Assembly (NCBI GenBank): GCA_013812655.1
Contig: JACCTC010000324.1
Location: 1 to 42,404, forward strand
From: Deltaproteobacteria bacterium
GTDB taxonomy: Bacteria > Myxococcota_A > Polyangia > Haliangiales > Haliangiaceae
Direction: 5' to 3'
Length of the DNA: 42,404 nt
Below are positions 5,019-15,356 of the stretch, one piece after another. The position numbers and the translations under genes are program-made. Positions within the stretch are counted from its first letter, which is position 1. The number at the start of each line of letters is the position of its first letter. The notes under the pieces were generated by a model, which saw only the letters and a program-made list of their open reading frames with translations, made no database searches and was not told where the DNA came from.

Positions 5019-7553
5019 ATGCGTGCCACGGGACTCGCTGCGCTCTCGCTGATCTTGCTTGCCTGCGGCGGGGATGACGGCCCCACCGATCCAGGCGTGA
5101 CGACCGAGCGCTGCACCTACGTGCCGCTCGTGCCGACCGCCGGGACCGGCGGCACCGTGACCGCCGGTGCGCTGATGGCCGGCGCCGCAGATCACGTGCT
5201 GCACGTCCCGGTCGGCACCGCGCTCGGTGGCTACACCGGCCGCGCCGGCTTCCTCAGCTCGGCGGGCACCGTCGACGCGCGCAAGGTGCCGCTGTCGGGG
5301 ACGTTCAACCCGTCGATCGGCGTGACCGTCGCGCCGCGCGTCAAGGCGCTCGCGCTCAGCGCAGGCGGCGAGACCGTGATCATCGTCAAGGCCGACATGA
5401 TCTTCGCGTACGAAGGTCTGCTGTTCGATCTCGAGGCCCGGCTCGGCCCCGAGTACGCCGGCAAGATCGTGTTCGCGACCTCGCACAGCCACTCGGCGTG
5501 GGCGCAGTTCACCGGACACGCCCCGCTCAAGCTCGGCTCCGGCCAGCTCCGCGATCGCGTCTACCAGCGCTTCCTCGGCGGCCTCGAAGCCGCCGCCCGC
5601 GATGCGCTCGCGGCTCGCCGCCCGGCGAAGCTCGGAATCTTTCACACTCCCTCCTTCGACCCGCAGGACGTGGTGAACCGCGATCGCCGCGCCGAGAACG
5701 ACGCGCTCCCCGGCGGCAACCGCGGCGACGATCACCTCGCGCTGATCCGCGTCGACGGCACCGACGGCGCGCCGATCGCGATCGTGCCGATCTTCGGGCA
5801 GCATCCGACGCTCAACGATCAGGACAACCCGTTCGCGACCGCGGATGCCACGGGCGGCCTCGAGCGCGCGATCGCCGAGCAGTTCGACACCGAGGTCGTC
5901 GTCATGCACCTGCAGAGCGCAGGCGCCGACAGCTCGGCCGTCGGCCACGGTGGTATCGATTGCACCACGCGCCCCGGCAAGGAAGGTGACCCGTGCTTCC
6001 GGTGGGCCGCCGAGGAAGGCCACGGCCGTGCCGCGGTCGCCGAGCTGCTCGCCGCGTACTCGTCGGCGGGTGCCGCGATGCGCGAGAGCCTGGAGCTCGA
6101 GATGGTGACCCGCTCGATCGAGACCGGGCCGCGCGCCGACACGTTCACGATCCGCAGCGGCGCGCTCGCATACGCGCCGTTCGATCTGACGCGCACGATG
6201 CCCGACGGTGTCGTGTTCGAGGGCGGTTCGGTCAAGTCGCCGATCGACGAGTTCAACGCGCAGGTCGGTGCCGGGCTCTGCGAGACCGAGACGCCGATGT
6301 TCCCGGCCGCCGCGATTCCGGGCACCGAGGGCATCCGGCCTTATGGCTCGTGTCTCAAGCTCGATCTCGCGGGCGAGATCCTGGGCCCGATCTTCAACAT
6401 CGACTTCGGTGTCGACGACAAGCACCCGGTCTGCGAGACCACGCGCACCACGCTGTCGGCGCTGCGCATCGGCGACTACGTGTTCGGCACGCTGCCCGGC
6501 GAGGTCAGCATCCTGGTCGCCGATCTCGTTCGCGAGAAGTCACCGGCCGGCGCCGACAAGACGATCGTGATCGGCTACGCGCAGGGCCACGTCGGCTACA
6601 TGTTGCGTCCCGAGGACTGGATGCTCGGCGGCTACGAGCCCAGCGTGACGTTCTGGGGGCCGCTCGAGGCCGAGTACATCACCGAGCAGCTGCTCGCGCT
6701 GATGCCGCTCGCGAGCACGCCAACCCGCGAGAACGGCGCCGCCGATGGCACCGATCGCGTCGCCACGCCGACCATGATCGACAATCTCGTGGTCGACGAT
6801 CCAGCGCCGATGGCCGGCACCGTGCCGGCCACGATCCCCGCGGTGACGTGGGCCCGCACCGGCACACCCGCGCAGGGCCAGCCGGCGGCGACGATCCGGC
6901 GCGTCGAGGGCATCGCGACGTTCGCGTGGACGGGCGACGATCCGCAGGTCAGGACGCCACACGTCACGCTGCAGGTCGAAGCGGTCCCCGGCACCGGCGT
7001 GTTCACCGCGGTGACCCGGCGCAGCGGCCGCCGCGTCGAGGATGGCGAGATCGTGCTGGCCTACACGCCGTCGCCGCTTCAGCGCGGCAGCGGGCCGCAG
7101 ACCCATATGTGGGTCGCCGAGTGGCAAGCGGTCCCGTGGGTCGGCACGCCCGATCGCGACGGGCTCGATGCGCGCGGCGGCGTGCCGCTCGGCCGCTACC
7201 GGTTCCACGTCGAAGGCAACGGCTGGATGCTCGATAGCCAGGCCTTCGAGGTCATCCCCGGCGGCGTCGCGCTCGCGGTCCAGCGCACCGCGGGAACGAT
7301 CCGCACGACGGTGTCGTGGCACGCCCCCAAGGGCTGGCGGCTGATGGACATGCAGCAGCCGTCGAACCAGCCAATACCGGTCCGCTCGCAGACGGTGACG
7401 GTCACGCTTCTCAACAGCGCTGGCGTCGCGCTGTCGTCGGACGTCGTGCAGTCGGATGCAAGCGGCGTCGCGACGGTGACCGACAACGGGCTCGCGACAA
7501 TGGTCCGGATCACCGACCGCTTCGGCAACGTCGCGACGACCGCCATCCCGTAG
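5019..7553 (+). CDS. neutral ceramidase-like lipoprotein
   Basis: This 844-residue protein has a short signal ending in the lipobox LLAC (C16), so it is probably anchored in the envelope. Residues ~50-550 follow the neutral/alkaline ceramidase N-terminal fold. The zinc-site motif ATxTHSG appears as ATSHSHSAW (H156, H158). The second zinc-histidine segment appears as FGQHPT (H262). The segment that carries the nucleophilic Ser in Pseudomonas ceramidase (QTNAGNLSPN) appears as LQSAGADSSAVG. A C-terminal beta region (about 590-844) is Thr/Val-rich. Neutral ceramidases split ceramide into sphingosine and fatty acid. Some myxobacteria make sphingolipids, so a lipid substrate is plausible but unproven. 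The gene sits between a sigma/FecR pair and a large kinase, all on one strand. Confidence 0.78.
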   Translation: MRATGLAALSLILLACGGDDGPTDPGVTTERCTYVPLVPTAGTGGTVTAGALMAGAADHVLHVPVGTALGGYTGRAGFLSSAGTVDARKVPLSGTFNPSIGVTVAPRVKALALSAGGETVIIVKADMIFAYEGLLFDLEARLGPEYAGKIVFATSHSHSAWAQFTGHAPLKLGSGQLRDRVYQRFLGGLEAAARDALAARRPAKLGIFHTPSFDPQDVVNRDRRAENDALPGGNRGDDHLALIRVDGTDGAPIAIVPIFGQHPTLNDQDNPFATADATGGLERAIAEQFDTEVVVMHLQSAGADSSAVGHGGIDCTTRPGKEGDPCFRWAAEEGHGRAAVAELLAAYSSAGAAMRESLELEMVTRSIETGPRADTFTIRSGALAYAPFDLTRTMPDGVVFEGGSVKSPIDEFNAQVGAGLCETETPMFPAAAIPGTEGIRPYGSCLKLDLAGEILGPIFNIDFGVDDKHPVCETTRTTLSALRIGDYVFGTLPGEVSILVADLVREKSPAGADKTIVIGYAQGHVGYMLRPEDWMLGGYEPSVTFWGPLEAEYITEQLLALMPLASTPTRENGAADGTDRVATPTMIDNLVVDDPAPMAGTVPATIPAVTWARTGTPAQGQPAATIRRVEGIATFAWTGDDPQVRTPHVTLQVEAVPGTGVFTAVTRRSGRRVEDGEIVLAYTPSPLQRGSGPQTHMWVAEWQAVPWVGTPDRDGLDARGGVPLGRYRFHVEGNGWMLDSQAFEVIPGGVALAVQRTAGTIRTTVSWHAPKGWRLMDMQQPSNQPIPVRSQTVTVTLLNSAGVALSSDVVQSDASGVATVTDNGLATMVRITDRFGNVATTAIP

Positions 7554-7581: not shown

Positions 7582-10500
7582 GTGGAGCCCGCCGACCAGA
7601 CGATGCGGGCGCTGGTCAGCGCGGGGAGCAGGTCAGTCGACGAGGCGTTCGTGCCGATCGCGCAGCTCGGCGCGGGTCCGGACGGCACCGTCGTGCTCGC
7701 GCGCCGCGGCGAGCGCCTGGTCGAGCTCCACCAGCTGACGTTCGGGCCGCGGTCGCCGCGGTGGGCCGGCCTCGCGATCCGCATCAAGGCGATCAGCGCG
7801 GTCGATCAGCCGACCGTGCGCCCGGTGCTCGCGTTCGATCCGGAGCCGCCGATGGTCGTCACCGAGGGTGACAGCTTCCCGCCGCTCGCCGAGCTCATCG
7901 AGCAGACCGCGGTCGAGCTCCCACGTGCCGTGCGGATCCTCGTCGAGCTCGGGCGCGGGCTCGCCGCCGCGCACCACGTCGGCGTGTTCCACGGCGGCAT
8001 CCACCCGTGGTCGGTGTGGGTCGGCGCCGGTGATCGCCCGCGCTTCGAGCTCATCGGCCTCGCGACGCGGCCCTCGCACCACGCCTGGGCAGCACGCTGC
8101 CGCGCCCCGGAGAGCGCCGACCTCGTTGACGGCCCGGCCGACGCCGCCGCCGACGTGTTCGCCGTCGGCGCGCTGCTCGAGCTGTTCGCGACCACAGGCG
8201 GTCGCGAGGCGGACGCTGATCTGCGGGAGATCGCGAGCGACGCCACGCTTGCCGATCCCGAGGCCCGACCGACAATGGTGGAGCTCGTCCGCCGGCTCCA
8301 TCACGTCACCGTGCCGGTCCGCGGCAGGCCGACACAGCAGACGATGACCGCGGCGCAGACGATCGCGCTCGACCCAACTGCGCTGTCGTCGCCGCGGCCT
8401 GCCGTCGGCGTCAAGATCGGCCGCTACGAGCTCGTCCGCCAGCTCGGCGCCGGTGCGATGGGCGAGGTCTGGGAATCGATCGACACCGCGAGCGAGAGCC
8501 GCGTGGCGCTCAAGCTCCTGCGTCCCGAGATCGCGCGCGACGCCGAGCTACTGCGCCGCTTCCGCAAGGAGGCGCGCGTGCTCGCGAAGGTCGGCAGCCC
8601 GTTCATCGCGAACTGCATCGATCTCAACGAGGACCGCGGGCTCCACTACCTCGTGCTGGAGCTCGTCGCGGGTGGCAGCGTCGGCGCCGCGCTCAAGCGC
8701 GTGACCCGGTTCCCCGAGCGGCTCGCGCTCGCGGTCGTCGCTGATGCGTGCCGCGCGCTCGTCGAGCCGCACCGCCTCGGCATCGTCCATCGCGATCTCA
8801 AGCCCGACAACATGATGTTCGTGCGGGCTGGCCTCGAGCTCGAACGTTCGCCGGTCGGTCAGCTCGTCAAGCTCGGCGACTTCGGCATCGCGCGGAGCGT
8901 CGAGGGCCAGCACGTCGCCGATGGCGCGACCCGCGAGGGCGCGGTACTCGGGACGCCCGACTACATGGCGCCGGAGCAGTGCCAGGGCACCCAGGTCACG
9001 CCGGCAACCGATGTCTACGCGCTCGGCTGCTGCCTGTTCGCGCTGATCGCGGGCCGGCCGCCGTTCGTCGTCGAGGGCGACAACCAGATGAGCGTGATCC
9101 TCGCGCACCTCAACGAGCCGCCGCCGAAGCTCGAGACCGTGGCTCCCGAGGTCTCGCCGGCGGTCGCCGCGCTCGTCGCTCGCTGCCTGGCGAAGGATCC
9201 GAAGCAGCGTCCGGCCGATGCCGCCGAGCTGTTCGACGCGATCGAGCAGATGTGCGAGGGCGCCGCGGTCTCGATCACGGCGCATCCCGCGCCGCCCGTC
9301 GTGCGCGCTTCGCTCGTGCAGACCTACGACTTCGTGTGGGACCTCGCAGCGTCGGCCGAGCAGCTGTGGCCGTTCGTGTCGAACACCGAGAAGATGAACC
9401 GCGCGACCGGTCTCGCGCCCGTGCGCTTCGAGATCGAATCGATCGGCGCGGTCGGCGAACCGTCGACGACCGGCAACCAGCGCGTCGCCGGGCTCGCGCT
9501 GAAGTGGCGCGAGCATCCCTACGAGTGGATCGAGGGCAGTCGCCACGTCGTGCTGCGCGTGTTCGAGAAGGGCGTGTTGCGCTGGTATGTCGCCGAGGTC
9601 CGGCTCGAGCGGCTGCCGGGCGGTGGCACGCGGCTTCACAACACGATCAAGCTCGAGCCTCGCGGCCTGCTCGCGCGCGTGCTCTCGCGCTGGGAGATCG
9701 GCGTCAAGTACAAGAAGCGGCTCGCGGCCGTGTACACCCGGCTCGACCGGCTGCTCTCCGCCGGCGGCCGCCCCGAGATCGATCCGATCGATCCCGACAT
9801 CAAGCTGCCCGCCGCGGCGCGGGCGCGTGTCGAGCATGCCTCGGCTGCGCTCGCCGCCGCGAACCTCGAGTCGCGCGCCGTCGACGCACTCACCGCGTTT
9901 CTGATGTCCGCCTCCGATCAGGACGTCGCCCGGATCCGGCCGCTCGAGCTCGCCGCGCGGTTCGGGGTTCCCGAGGAGGCGATGATCGAGACCTGTCTGC
10001 ACGCGGCGAAGCTCGGCGTGCTCGAGATGGTGTGGGACGTGATCTGTCCGTCGTGTCGGATCCCGTCGACGGTCGTCGAGTCGCTCGCCAAGATCGAGGA
10101 GCACGGGCGCTGCAAGACGTGCAACCTCGGCTTCGAGGTCGACTTCTCGCGCGCGATCGAGCTCGCGTTCCGCGCAGCCCCGGAGGTCCGGGCGGTCGAG
10201 ACCCGCACGTTCTGTGTCGGCGGGCCCGCGCACTTCCCGCACGTCGCTGCGCAGGTGCGGCTCGCACCCGGCGAGCGCTTCGCGCTGCAGCTCACGCTCG
10301 CGCCCGGCTTCTACCTGCTGCGCAGCCCGCAGGTCGCGCGCGTCCACGAGCTGCGGGTGAGCGCCCAGGGTGGCGTGCGTCGGATCGATGTCCGGCTCGG
10401 CGAGCGTAGCGACCTCGCGACGCTCACGGCCGGCGACCAGCTGCTCACGGTCGTCAACCCGGAGGACCGCGAGGTCGTCGTCCGCGTCGAGCGGGCAGGG

Positions 10501-11061
10501 GATCGCGCGTTCGCGCTGACCGCATCACGCGTGATGGCGACCGCGGCGTTTCGCGAGCTGTTCCCCGATCAGGCGCTCGCCCCCGGCCGCTTGATGGCGG
10601 TGACCCAGGCGACGCTCGTCGTCGCGCAGGTCGACGAGGCCCAGGCGTTGTTTCGCGATCTCGGTGACAGCAAGGCGTTCCCGGTCGCTGCGCGGTTCTA
10701 CGACCTGATCGGCGCACTCGCGCGCGAGTATGGCGGCTCGCTCATCAAGACGTTTGGTGGGCTCGCGATCGCTGCGTTCGAACGGCCCGGTCCCGCCGTC
10801 GAGGCCGCGCTCGCGCTGCAGGCCGCGATCGATGGCGAGCCGTTGACGCATGGTCTGCGCTGCCGTGTTGCCGTGCACCGCGGCCCGGTGATGGCGCTCA
10901 CCCACGCCGGCCGCCTCGACTACTTCGGACAGAACGTCGAGCTCGCGCTCGCGCGTGACGTCACGCTGACATCGCATCCGTCGCGCGAGGCCGCGAACCG
11001 GCTGTACTCGCGCCTTGGTTTCCAGCGCGTCGGCACGAACGTCTATCGACTTCCGCTGTAG
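7582..11061 (+). CDS. pseudokinase / Ser-Thr kinase / SRPBCC / DUF5939 / degenerate class III cyclase fusion
   Basis: This is one 1159-residue polypeptide with five parts. Residues ~20-250 are kinase-like (GAGPDGTVVLAR loop) but have HGG (137-139) in place of HRD and no DFG, so this is a pseudokinase. Residues 280-560 form a complete Hanks-type kinase: LGAGAMGEVW, K311, HRDLKPDN (D405), DFG (433-435) and GTPDYMAPEQ. Residues ~580-725 resemble an SRPBCC/START lipid- or ligand-binding fold. Residues ~745-1000 resemble DUF5939 with a four-Cys zinc ribbon (C822, C825, C844, C847). Residues ~1005-1159 have the class III nucleotide cyclase fold. The two metal-binding Asp positions hold Q1016 and G1060, and the Asn position holds E1120, so cyclase activity is unlikely. 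No membrane segment is seen. Confidence 0.9.
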   Translation: MEPADQTMRALVSAGSRSVDEAFVPIAQLGAGPDGTVVLARRGERLVELHQLTFGPRSPRWAGLAIRIKAISAVDQPTVRPVLAFDPEPPMVVTEGDSFPPLAELIEQTAVELPRAVRILVELGRGLAAAHHVGVFHGGIHPWSVWVGAGDRPRFELIGLATRPSHHAWAARCRAPESADLVDGPADAAADVFAVGALLELFATTGGREADADLREIASDATLADPEARPTMVELVRRLHHVTVPVRGRPTQQTMTAAQTIALDPTALSSPRPAVGVKIGRYELVRQLGAGAMGEVWESIDTASESRVALKLLRPEIARDAELLRRFRKEARVLAKVGSPFIANCIDLNEDRGLHYLVLELVAGGSVGAALKRVTRFPERLALAVVADACRALVEPHRLGIVHRDLKPDNMMFVRAGLELERSPVGQLVKLGDFGIARSVEGQHVADGATREGAVLGTPDYMAPEQCQGTQVTPATDVYALGCCLFALIAGRPPFVVEGDNQMSVILAHLNEPPPKLETVAPEVSPAVAALVARCLAKDPKQRPADAAELFDAIEQMCEGAAVSITAHPAPPVVRASLVQTYDFVWDLAASAEQLWPFVSNTEKMNRATGLAPVRFEIESIGAVGEPSTTGNQRVAGLALKWREHPYEWIEGSRHVVLRVFEKGVLRWYVAEVRLERLPGGGTRLHNTIKLEPRGLLARVLSRWEIGVKYKKRLAAVYTRLDRLLSAGGRPEIDPIDPDIKLPAAARARVEHASAALAAANLESRAVDALTAFLMSASDQDVARIRPLELAARFGVPEEAMIETCLHAAKLGVLEMVWDVICPSCRIPSTVVESLAKIEEHGRCKTCNLGFEVDFSRAIELAFRAAPEVRAVETRTFCVGGPAHFPHVAAQVRLAPGERFALQLTLAPGFYLLRSPQVARVHELRVSAQGGVRRIDVRLGERSDLATLTAGDQLLTVVNPEDREVVVRVERAGDRAFALTASRVMATAAFRELFPDQALAPGRLMAVTQATLVVAQVDEAQALFRDLGDSKAFPVAARFYDLIGALAREYGGSLIKTFGGLAIAAFERPGPAVEAALALQAAIDGEPLTHGLRCRVAVHRGPVMALTHAGRLDYFGQNVELALARDVTLTSHPSREAANRLYSRLGFQRVGTNVYRLPL

Positions 11062-12716: not shown

Positions 12717-15356
12717 CTACGACGGGTCGTGACGGATCGGCAGGACCGCGGTCGGGCGATGGCGCTCGTCGTCGCGGACCGTCGTGAACCGCCGCTGTCC
12801 GGAGTCTCGCCACCACGCGGCCCAGCGCTCGGCGGCGGCCTCGCGATCGCGCTTCGGCAGATCGTGGTGATAGCCGAAGTACTCGCCGGTGAGCCTGCGG
12901 AGCGCCTTGATCGCGTTCTCGCGGATCGCGTCTTCCTTGTGGCCGAGGCCCTCGATCAGCCACTCGATGCGATGGCGCGCGCGGGCGCCCTCGTGCCACT
13001 TGCGCCACTTCTTCTCGCTCGTCCCGAAGTCCTGGCCGGTCAGCGCGATCAGCGCCTTGCGTGCGTGCTCGCCGCCGCGATCGGCACGCTCGATCACGCC
13101 GATCAGATCAGGGATCGCGTCGATGTCGCCGAGCTCGACGATCGCGGCAGTCGCGGCGCCGACGACCTCGGAGTCAGTCGAGTGAACTGCGCGACGGGCG
13201 CGGAGCAGCGCGTGCCCGAGATCCTGCAGCGGATAACCGGCGAGCGCCTCGATCGCGCACGCGCGGACGCCGAAGTCCTGGTCGAACAGCCGCTCGGCGA
13301 GCGCGAACACCGCCGTCCGCGGGCGCAGCTCCGAGGTGCACAGCGTCGCGTAGAACCGGACGTCGCGCCCTGGCGCGCCCATCGTGTCGATCAGCAGCTC
13401 GGCGGCGACCGAACCGAGCTGGACCACGAGCTCGAGCAGCCCGCCGTACTGTGCGGCCCGCAGCGGCCGGCCGGAGACGCTGAACCGATCGACGCGCAAC
13501 TTGCCGGGGAAGCGCGTCATCAGCGCGGCGATCGTCTCTTTCGCGCGGTCGAGGGCTTCGCTGATCGCCTGATCGGACGCGCCTTCGCCACCGGCCTCGA
13601 TCGCGTCGAGGAGCTCGTCGATCGGCCGCGGCGGCTCGGCCTCGATCGAGAGCTCGGTCCCCTGCTCGAATGATGGCGCCGATGGCCGCTGGTCGGGGGT
13701 GGCCCAGTTGCCCTCGCGCGTGATCGGTCGGGTGTCGATCATCTCGGCCTCGATCTCGACGACTGGCGCGTCGGTCGGTGCGCGGTAGCCGGCGGACTTG
13801 TGCTTGACGATCAGCCGGGCGATCGCGTCGGATGCAGCCATCGCCATCGGCAACAGCTCGGTGACATCGGAGAGCCGGATATCGGAGTGAACGCGGTGGG
13901 CGACGACGATCGCGACGACCCGCTCGCGGATCACGATCGGCAGGAGCAGCGCGGACGGCGGCATCGTGCCACCGAGCCGCAGCACCATCGAGTCGATGCC
14001 CGGATCCCCCGAGACCAGCGGGCCGATGTGCGACTGGTGATTGGAGACCACCGTGCGAAACGGCGAGACGACGTCGAGCGGGATCAGGACCGTCTCGATC
14101 GCCTTGGTATCGAGACTCTCCTCGGCGAGCGCGACACGTCCGATCGCGGCGCCGCCCTGCACGGTGAGCAGCCCCGCCCAGCGCGCGCGCGAACGAGCCG
14201 CGCGCAGCAGCGTCAGGAACACGGTGTCGCGATCCTCCGCGGTCGCGAGCAGCTGGCGCGCGGTGACGATCATCAGCGGCGCGTCGCGGCCCTCCGTCGC
14301 GATCGGCGCGGTCGCCGGGCGGCGCTTGATCGCAGGAGCGCTGCCAGGCCGCTCGAGCGAGACAGGCATGCTCGTCTTCGGCTCCGTCACCAGGCGCGGG
14401 ATGCCGGTGCTCGGCGTGTCGACCTGCACCTTCACCTTCGGCTCCTCCAAAACGCCGCCACCGACGGCGGGCGCGTGCGGATGAATCCGGCTGTCGGCCT
14501 TGTTGGGGGTCACGCCGACGACCGTCGCCGTGCGCGAGCGCGGGATGTCGACGGGGATCGAAGCCACTGATGGATCGGGCGCGACGAGCTTGAGGGTATC
14601 GGCGGTGTTCGGGACCGGCGTGATCCGCTGCAGCTTGATCGTGGCGACCGGCGCGGTGCCGGGTGGGGTCGCGATGCGTCGCGGCGTCGGCGTCAGCCGC
14701 TGCGGCATCTCGGTCTTCTCGGTCGCATCACCCGAGGTCTCGACAGGTGCGGGCACCGCCGCGCGCGCCGGGTTCGGCACGATCGGGGGACGCGGGACTT
14801 CTTGCACGACCGTCACGTCCGACACCGGAGCGTGGTCGTCGACGATGATCGTCTTGGCCTTGCCGACCGGCGGCACCGTCGCGTCGACATCGAGTGACCG
14901 GGCGAGCGTCGTGAACCGTGCCGGCGCGTCGAGGGCGTAGGCGGCCGCGAACACGAGGTGCCAGCGATACTCGGGCGTGATCAGCGGCTGGATCGGGCGG
15001 TCGAGCAGGTCCGCGAGATCCTCGAGCGACGACAGCTCGAGCGGCGAGCACACGAGGACGCGAACGGCGTCGCTGTCGACGGTGACGGGCACGGCACGAA
15101 ATCGCTCCGCGAGCTCGCAGCCCAGCAGCGCGACCGCGGCCGGATCGACGTGCTCGCCCTCGTCGCGTGCGGCGGGCGGCAGGCCCGAGGCGAGCGCGAG
15201 GTACTGGGTGAGGCGATCCTCGGGGACGAGGTTCATCTCGAGGAGGATCGTGTCGAGGCTGCCGCCGTAGATGACCTGGCGCTGGAACGCCTTCTCCATG
15301 CGCTTGACGCCGACGAGGCCGTCGCGCACCAGCAGGGAGCTCAGCCGCGCGGGCAA
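12717..15356 (-). CDS. MshEN (GspE N-terminal)-GAF-HEAT repeat protein
   Basis: This 879-residue cytoplasmic protein starts with TTG at 15356, with GAGGCG upstream. Residues ~1-150 resemble the N-terminal MshEN domain of type II secretion/pilus ATPases (LVRDGLVGVKRMEKAFQRQ, LALASGLPP, LELSSLEDLADLLDRP). In other proteins this domain can bind cyclic di-GMP. Residues ~160-365 are a Pro/Thr/Val-rich linker. Residues ~370-540 look like a GAF fold (LLTVQGGAAIGRVALAEESL ... ALLLPIVIRERVVAIVVAHR). The C-terminal ~280 residues are helical HEAT-type repeats (VVGAATAAIVELGDIDAIPDL, AIRENAIKALRRLTGEYFG). No ATPase domain is present, so it is likely a signalling or scaffold protein. An RDD gene lies upstream and a lipoprotein gene downstream. 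Confidence 0.82.
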   Translation of the reverse strand: MPARLSSLLVRDGLVGVKRMEKAFQRQVIYGGSLDTILLEMNLVPEDRLTQYLALASGLPPAARDEGEHVDPAAVALLGCELAERFRAVPVTVDSDAVRVLVCSPLELSSLEDLADLLDRPIQPLITPEYRWHLVFAAAYALDAPARFTTLARSLDVDATVPPVGKAKTIIVDDHAPVSDVTVVQEVPRPPIVPNPARAAVPAPVETSGDATEKTEMPQRLTPTPRRIATPPGTAPVATIKLQRITPVPNTADTLKLVAPDPSVASIPVDIPRSRTATVVGVTPNKADSRIHPHAPAVGGGVLEEPKVKVQVDTPSTGIPRLVTEPKTSMPVSLERPGSAPAIKRRPATAPIATEGRDAPLMIVTARQLLATAEDRDTVFLTLLRAARSRARWAGLLTVQGGAAIGRVALAEESLDTKAIETVLIPLDVVSPFRTVVSNHQSHIGPLVSGDPGIDSMVLRLGGTMPPSALLLPIVIRERVVAIVVAHRVHSDIRLSDVTELLPMAMAASDAIARLIVKHKSAGYRAPTDAPVVEIEAEMIDTRPITREGNWATPDQRPSAPSFEQGTELSIEAEPPRPIDELLDAIEAGGEGASDQAISEALDRAKETIAALMTRFPGKLRVDRFSVSGRPLRAAQYGGLLELVVQLGSVAAELLIDTMGAPGRDVRFYATLCTSELRPRTAVFALAERLFDQDFGVRACAIEALAGYPLQDLGHALLRARRAVHSTDSEVVGAATAAIVELGDIDAIPDLIGVIERADRGGEHARKALIALTGQDFGTSEKKWRKWHEGARARHRIEWLIEGLGHKEDAIRENAIKALRRLTGEYFGYHHDLPKRDREAAAERWAAWWRDSGQRRFTTVRDDERHRPTAVLPIRHDPS

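Follow-up and report, generated by a model that had tools for sequence, protein, structure and literature searches.

A predicted bacterial Ser/Thr kinase joined to a putative sensor module and a class III cyclase fold that lacks catalytic residues

Why would a protein kinase carry, at the far end of its chain, a cyclase domain whose catalytic residues have been replaced? The question is raised by one gene in contig JACCTC010000324.1 of a deltaproteobacterium of the family Haliangiaceae (assembly GCA_013812655.1), the whole 42,404-nucleotide stretch of which was analyzed here and is called the window. A first-pass annotation had read this gene as a fusion of a pseudokinase, an active kinase, an SRPBCC domain, a DUF5939 region with a zinc ribbon and a dead cyclase; Pfam searches, profiles built from orthologues and structure models bear out the presence of these five domains in one continuous frame. 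We are moderately confident of the following answer: the protein would be a Ser/Thr kinase that acquired its regulatory half from a class III adenylate cyclase, with the dead cyclase kept as a relay or dimer element. The dead active site in all of the kinase-joined relatives that we sampled suggests that a sensor has been rewired from the making of cyclic AMP (cAMP) to the control of phosphorylation.

By profile and motifs, the second domain is a Hanks-type Ser/Thr kinase that is predicted to be active. Pfam placed Pkinase at residues 282-545 of the whole protein (E 3e-47, above the cut-off), and the VAIK-type lysine (K311) and the aspartates of HRD (D405) and DFG (D433) are all there. These features recur among relatives in which the kinase precedes the sensor module (hereafter N-terminal fusions), with HRD and DFG in 35/35 and the lysine in 34/34 that cover its position. 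The N-terminal 270 residues gave no Pfam match in a single-sequence search, and when the orthologous N-termini were scanned singly, Pkinase appeared at E 1 or better in 6 of 11 (best 2e-4). A profile of the N-terminal domain matched the protein's own kinase at 98.9% probability and, among PDB sequences, best matched PknB (E 8e-13); its AlphaFold model (mean predicted local distance difference test score, pLDDT, 86) matched kinases in Foldseek at E 4e-12. The domain has HGG where HRD is expected and lacks both DFG and the VAIK lysine. Thus, as judged by profile and model, it is a pseudokinase, a kinase fold without catalytic motifs. It is absent from three Planctomycetota fusions, which keep the order kinase, SRPBCC, DUF5939, dead cyclase.

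The putative sensor module follows the intact kinase. Its DUF5939 part was recognized by PF19363 at residues 763-874 (E 8e-20; 71.6 bits against a cut-off of 22.5; positions 16-128 of the 281-position model), and the same family matched 11 of 11 orthologous cores. The four cysteines of the zinc-ribbon-like site are kept in every fused or standalone copy that covers it (20, 3, 12 and 43 copies across four groups). The SRPBCC-like assignment is the weakest of the five domain calls. Polyketide_cyc2 (PF10604) scored 22.3 bits in the window's segment, under its cut-off of 27.4, and reached E 0.1 or better in 7 of 11 members (best 8.5e-6); NCBIfam gave no match to the segment and the PDB sequence search no convincing one. 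The model of an intact orthologue, L068, has a beta-alpha-alpha-beta-strands-alpha order, which fits SRPBCC.

The last domain is a class III cyclase fold by profile and by model. Pfam's Guanylate_cyc fell under its cut-off (E 0.034), and the segment matched the mycobacterial cyclase Ma1120 at E 9e-6 as a single sequence and at 2.5e-10 by profile. The fold model, made from the intact orthologue L068 rather than from the truncated copy in the window (mean pLDDT 77.5), matched Rv1900c and Ma1120 at E about 1e-9, so that structure prediction agrees with the cyclase fold proposed earlier. Both metal aspartates are replaced (Q1016, G1060), the transition-state asparagine has become E1120 and the Arg/Lys position A1124; the first three residues had been numbered correctly in the first-pass annotation. 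Lacking the residues of a working enzyme, the domain is predicted to be catalytically dead. The site letters of the fused copies revealed no rebuilt metal site, within an alignment that would not reach a shifted aspartate; the window's copy has a D two residues after Q1016. Among the genus orthologues the motifs of the dead domain are nearly fixed (KTFGG or KIFGG, and NVE), with mostly Q, also H and T, at the first metal position (D1). Mean identity within the genus (8 orthologues, 28 pairs) is 75% for the dead cyclase, 73% for the kinase, 71% each for SRPBCC and DUF5939 and 56% for the pseudokinase. Being as conserved as the kinase, the dead cyclase is probably under selection, and thus probably in use.

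We then compared the cyclase sites of relatives with and without a kinase. After removal of duplicates, 80 open reading frames were available, of which 19 carried pseudokinase and kinase, 16 the kinase only (among them L014, cut by a contig end) and 45 no kinase. Of these last 45, two are pieces of dead genes: the second half of a fusion split in genome G008, and L104, which lies at the start of its contig so that its upstream side is unseen. The other 43 all retain both metal aspartates together with the Lys, Asp and Asn of the active site, counting L025, whose contig ends just before the core so that its upstream side is unseen, and L023, a piece behind an in-frame stop. By contrast, none of the 33 fully readable kinase-fused copies keeps D1, the second metal aspartate (D2) and Asn together. 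The earlier remark that DUF5939 usually accompanies a working cyclase is thus supported by the intact catalytic residues of the standalone copies. Whether the cyclase aspartates are always lost beside a kinase receives a divided answer: no readable fused copy preserves the full D1, D2 and Asn set, but single aspartates survive, D1 in 2/35 (L106 and L107, both without Lys and Asn) and D2 in 12/34. The Asn persists in 3/33, all three from Schlesneria (Planctomycetota), where both metal aspartates are gone.

Because picking relatives by similarity could bias this split, a separate sample was assembled with membership of the DUF5939 family as its sole criterion. It covered 112 genomes from across the phylum, 31 of which had a match, and all 37 genes at E 1e-8 were read. 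Twenty-four are unfused and live (in one of these, L184, the contig is cut before the Asn, leaving its C-terminal side unseen), 12 are fused with none live, and 1 is unfused and dead. Eleven of the 12 fused genes lie in one frame; the remaining one, L205, is split by a frameshift and is collinear with a fused relative at about 60%.

The DUF5939 sample also revealed a second arrangement. In 9 of the 12 fused genes, and in L205 across its frameshift, the kinase is C-terminal and is separated from DUF5939 by a segment of about 150 residues. A profile of eight such segments aligned over 88 columns with the dead cyclases (hhalign probability 89%, E 2e-6) and scarcely with live cyclases (3%, E 0.015), so that the segment looks like a far more eroded cyclase. 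By pattern, these C-terminal kinases have HRD in 8/9 and DFG in 7/9, and some may be altered. In a tree of SRPBCC-DUF5939 without cyclase columns, the C-terminal and N-terminal types separate, and L205 is nested in the clade of the C-terminal type. Kinases at opposite ends of the chain argue for at least two kinase gains, and a single loss of cyclase activity may have preceded both. A single clade of N-terminal fusions was not rejected (approximately unbiased test, p-AU 0.45); in the free tree, the live standalone copies L192 and L197 fall inside the N-terminal-fusion clade (support 93). Fragments and near-copies were removed before tree building: 6 of 80 rows for the class-level tree, 4 of 80 for its version without cyclase columns and 18 of 110 for the SRPBCC-DUF5939 tree.

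How might such a protein work? The SRPBCC and zinc-ribbon DUF5939 module would sense a signal, and the dead cyclase, its fold retained, would relay it, probably as a dimer interface of the class III cyclase type. A signal at the module would then alter kinase pairing and trans-phosphorylation, making the kinase the output, and in the window's branch the N-terminal pseudokinase would be an added regulator. The first-pass proposal that the sensor-cyclase half had turned into a module for a kinase is sound as regards the partnership, which is found across the whole family; the regulation itself we infer. A more ambitious version, which we put forward only tentatively and consider rather doubtful, would have a portable SRPBCC-DUF5939 sensor whose output was swapped from cAMP to phosphorylation at least twice, at opposite ends of the chain, with the cyclase killed but kept. 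In the pseudokinase branch, the cyclase would have come to sense adenine nucleotides without metal and to switch the kinase, in a mirror image of the receptor guanylyl cyclases.

Several observations weigh against a kinase regulated through a retained dead cyclase, or against its repeated origin. In the class-level sample all fused copies lie on one side of a branch (Shimodaira-Hasegawa-like approximate likelihood ratio test, SH-aLRT, 99; 91 without cyclase columns), so that the N-terminal set could stem from a single event, and a single clade of all dead copies, with L205 and L206 counted, is only weakly disfavoured (p-AU 0.07). L206 (in genome G347), the unfused dead gene of the DUF5939 sample, consists of SRPBCC-DUF5939 and an eroded cyclase and has no kinase in its chain or in the 6 kb fetched; a cyclase can thus be lost without a kinase being part of its chain. 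The counts given above are of sequences, not of independent events, and metagenome-assembled genomes (MAGs) are among the genomes sampled. Across 16 members of the pseudokinase branch, identity is lower for the dead cyclase (46%) than for SRPBCC (52%) and DUF5939 (50%); in 16 standalone copies, the live cyclase stands at 72% against 52% and 51%. Such weaker constraint is expected once catalysis no longer matters. Five of the 16 genomes of the genus (G005, G009, G011, G013 and G015; completeness 59-97%) yielded no orthologue, and the cyclase fold of the window's own copy is incomplete at its end.

The role of the dead domain could also lie elsewhere. It might pair with live standalone cyclases of the same cell, so that the kinase phosphorylates or poisons a cyclase; a mixed dimer should be inactive, as the dead partner supplies neither metal aspartate nor Asn. 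Candidate partners are at hand, since the window's genome also has two unfused relatives with live cyclases and other fusion-bearing genomes of the genus have additional core matches of standalone size, and the dead domain holds its fold and is conserved in the genus. Three fusion-bearing Planctomycetota MAGs, possibly incomplete, however, gave no second core match at E 1e-30, and we regard pairing as quite unlikely. Alternatively, the dead cyclase might bind a purine nucleotide without metal and pass this state to the kinase. The pseudokinase-bearing branch, with catalysis gone, retains Lys in 18/19 and Asp in 17/18 readable copies at the pair of positions by which class III cyclases recognize adenine. 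Retention is not general, however, as the remaining N-terminal fusions no longer have this pair (Lys 0/12 and 0/3; Asp 1/12 and 0/3), and the metal aspartates that hold the phosphates are missing as well; nucleotide sensing is, in our estimate, unlikely.

Finally, the cyclase might be a passenger in a decaying fusion, with the window's gene, its 3′ stretch missing, on the way to becoming a pseudogene. The branch-wide figure of 46%, set against 72% for the live standalone clade, would suit decay, as would the state of the 3′ end. Orthologues from the genus match the protein to residue 1124 and then run on for roughly 50-70 residues, but residues 1125-1159 instead resemble a GNAT acetyltransferase at its C-terminus (79% over 33 amino acids for that of G008, at L044 8146-8244; 76% over 29 amino acids for that of G012). 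In G008, the GNAT gene directly follows the orthologue, ending at L044 8250, and about 527 bases of the G008 sequence are missing from the window at the junction; a search of its own genome for another copy of the joined piece gave only two weak 40-base matches. The 3′ end thus reflects either a genuine deletion that kept the frame or an assembly error. Unless the second is the case, the window's copy no longer has the final part of the cyclase, and most of the GNAT gene next to it is gone. The near-fixed motifs and the within-genus identity of the dead domain (75% against 73% for the kinase) speak against decay, which we hold to be improbable, and a Ser/Thr kinase with a regulatory half of cyclase origin remains our preferred reading. 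As to the frame itself, a sequencing join is ruled out up to residue 1124, through which the genus orthologues align; the last 35 residues, in a correction to the first-pass reading, are a GNAT tail and lie outside the cyclase. No transmembrane stretch is evident in the 1159-residue protein, the highest 19-residue hydropathy mean, 1.64, lying within the kinase. The layout is given in Table 1.

Table 1. Features of the fusion gene (positions in the window) and loci with the kinase at the C-terminus
Feature	Position	Strand	Basis or remark
Whole reading frame	7582..11061	+	1159 amino acids; GTG start; no internal stop; genus orthologues align to residue 1124
Pseudokinase domain, residues about 22-245	7645..8316	+	Profile comparison; AlphaFold model
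Hanks-type Ser/Thr kinase (predicted active), residues about 278-560	8413..9261	+	Pkinase E 3e-47; K311, D405 (HRD), D433 (DFG)
SRPBCC/START-like domain, residues about 581-740	9322..9801	+	Polyketide_cyc2 below cut-off; orthologue model
DUF5939 region, residues about 741-985	9802..10536	+	PF19363 E 8e-20, residues 763-874
Zinc-ribbon-like CxxC...CxxC (C822, C825, C844, C847)	10045..10122	+	Conserved Cys in relatives
Class III cyclase fold without catalytic residues, residues about 1004-1124, end truncated	10591..10953	+	Profile; orthologue model
Q1016 at first metal Asp position (D1)	10627..10629	+	Site letters in alignment
G1060 at second metal Asp position (D2)	10759..10761	+	Site letters in alignment
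E1120 at transition-state Asn position	10939..10941	+	Site letters in alignment
GNAT acetyltransferase gene tail, fused in frame, outside the cyclase	10954..11061	+	Match to G008 GNAT end
C-terminal-kinase loci L181, L182, L183, L186-L191, L205			SRPBCC-DUF5939, eroded cyclase relic, kinase

Counting that of the window, 11 of the genus's 16 genomes carry a full-length or partial orthologue, at 59-72% identity; in G008 the gene is split over two frames across an assembly gap. A genome of another genus in the same family (G021) has an orthologue at 40%. A core scan of named genomes yielded 15 loci, including the three Schlesneria MAGs with the fusion. In the class-level core search, 72 of 289 genomes had a match at E 1e-62; every match listed with an open frame of at least 850 residues was taken, and shorter ones in part. 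Fused copies came from three families (f14, f24 and f25), and a fourth, f27, contributed one fragment. The window's genome also encodes a 474-residue DUF5939 protein that has a live cyclase and is too short to hold the usual SRPBCC domain (L003 961-2382, G000:C292).

Among the neighbours, the gene 28 bases upstream (window 5019-7553) is neutral/alkaline ceramidase-like (Ceramidase_alk E 1e-6; 28.2 bits against a cut-off of 32.1). A ceramidase-like gene lies about 0.7 to 2.4 kb from the orthologue in G003, G004, G006, G007, G012 and G014; the stretches of G001, G008 and G021 showed none, and the contigs of G002 and G010 end too near. A lipid-sensing link to this neighbour was considered and is kept as a remark only. 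On the minus strand, at 12717-15356, the window encodes a MshEN and HEAT-repeat protein, relatives of which are found close to the orthologue in several of the genus's genomes. In Schlesneria, an FHA-EAL gene directly follows the fusion at two of the three loci (L073 2648-3553 and L074 6824-7969); at the third, L072, no such gene lies directly downstream. This neighbour would fit a kinase whose output is recognized by a phosphothreonine-binding domain and hints at a link from the kinase to cyclic di-GMP turnover.

The family offers a natural experiment: on its own, the sensor module precedes a live cyclase; in fusions, it comes ahead of or after a kinase, and in the fused copies read the cyclase is dead. 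Output swapping and the re-use of a dead enzyme thus become testable in bacteria, where live and dead relatives share one genome. For naming, cyclase-like matches in kinase-fused proteins should not be taken as cAMP production. In the literature within reach, with subscription papers and preprints outside it, we found no mention of DUF5939, a pseudocyclase or a kinase-cyclase fusion; among the papers listed by wider searches, none had a title or abstract opening that named an architecture of kinase, pseudokinase, DUF5939 and dead cyclase, and a term search of a paper on Planctomycetota kinases (PMC11032199) found 'cyclase' 0 times. The domain order, of which the first-pass annotation knew no described example, is a recurrent architecture rather than a singleton. 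The parts are of known kinds, and the combination and the live/dead split are undescribed as far as these searches reach.

The nearest known relatives are the standalone SRPBCC-DUF5939-class III cyclase genes (such as G000:C246 and L046), which have the same three domains in the same order and the same four cysteines, at about 27-34% core identity, but whose metal aspartates, Lys, Asp and Asn are intact and which lack kinase domains. Ma1120 and Rv1900c share the fold of the last domain; their PDB titles describe adenylyl cyclases in complex with ATP, GTP or analogues, whereas the window's protein has changed metal Asp and Asn positions, and N-terminal domains of the window's type matched only the window's own family. 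The intact kinase and the pseudokinase fold resemble PknB-type Hanks kinases, but here the regulatory half is a cyclase-type sensor, and the PknB_PASTA model reached 258 bits against a cut-off of 450. The TOMM kinase/cyclase fusion, TIGR03903, combines a kinase and a cyclase in one chain, to go by the model's name; it scored 117.9 bits on our protein, over the kinase stretch only, well short of its cut-off of 705.75. Membrane receptor guanylyl cyclases also carry a kinase-like and a cyclase domain in one chain, the kinase-like part being dead and the cyclase live. The window's protein has this relationship reversed, with the kinase intact, the cyclase predicted dead and a pseudokinase in addition.

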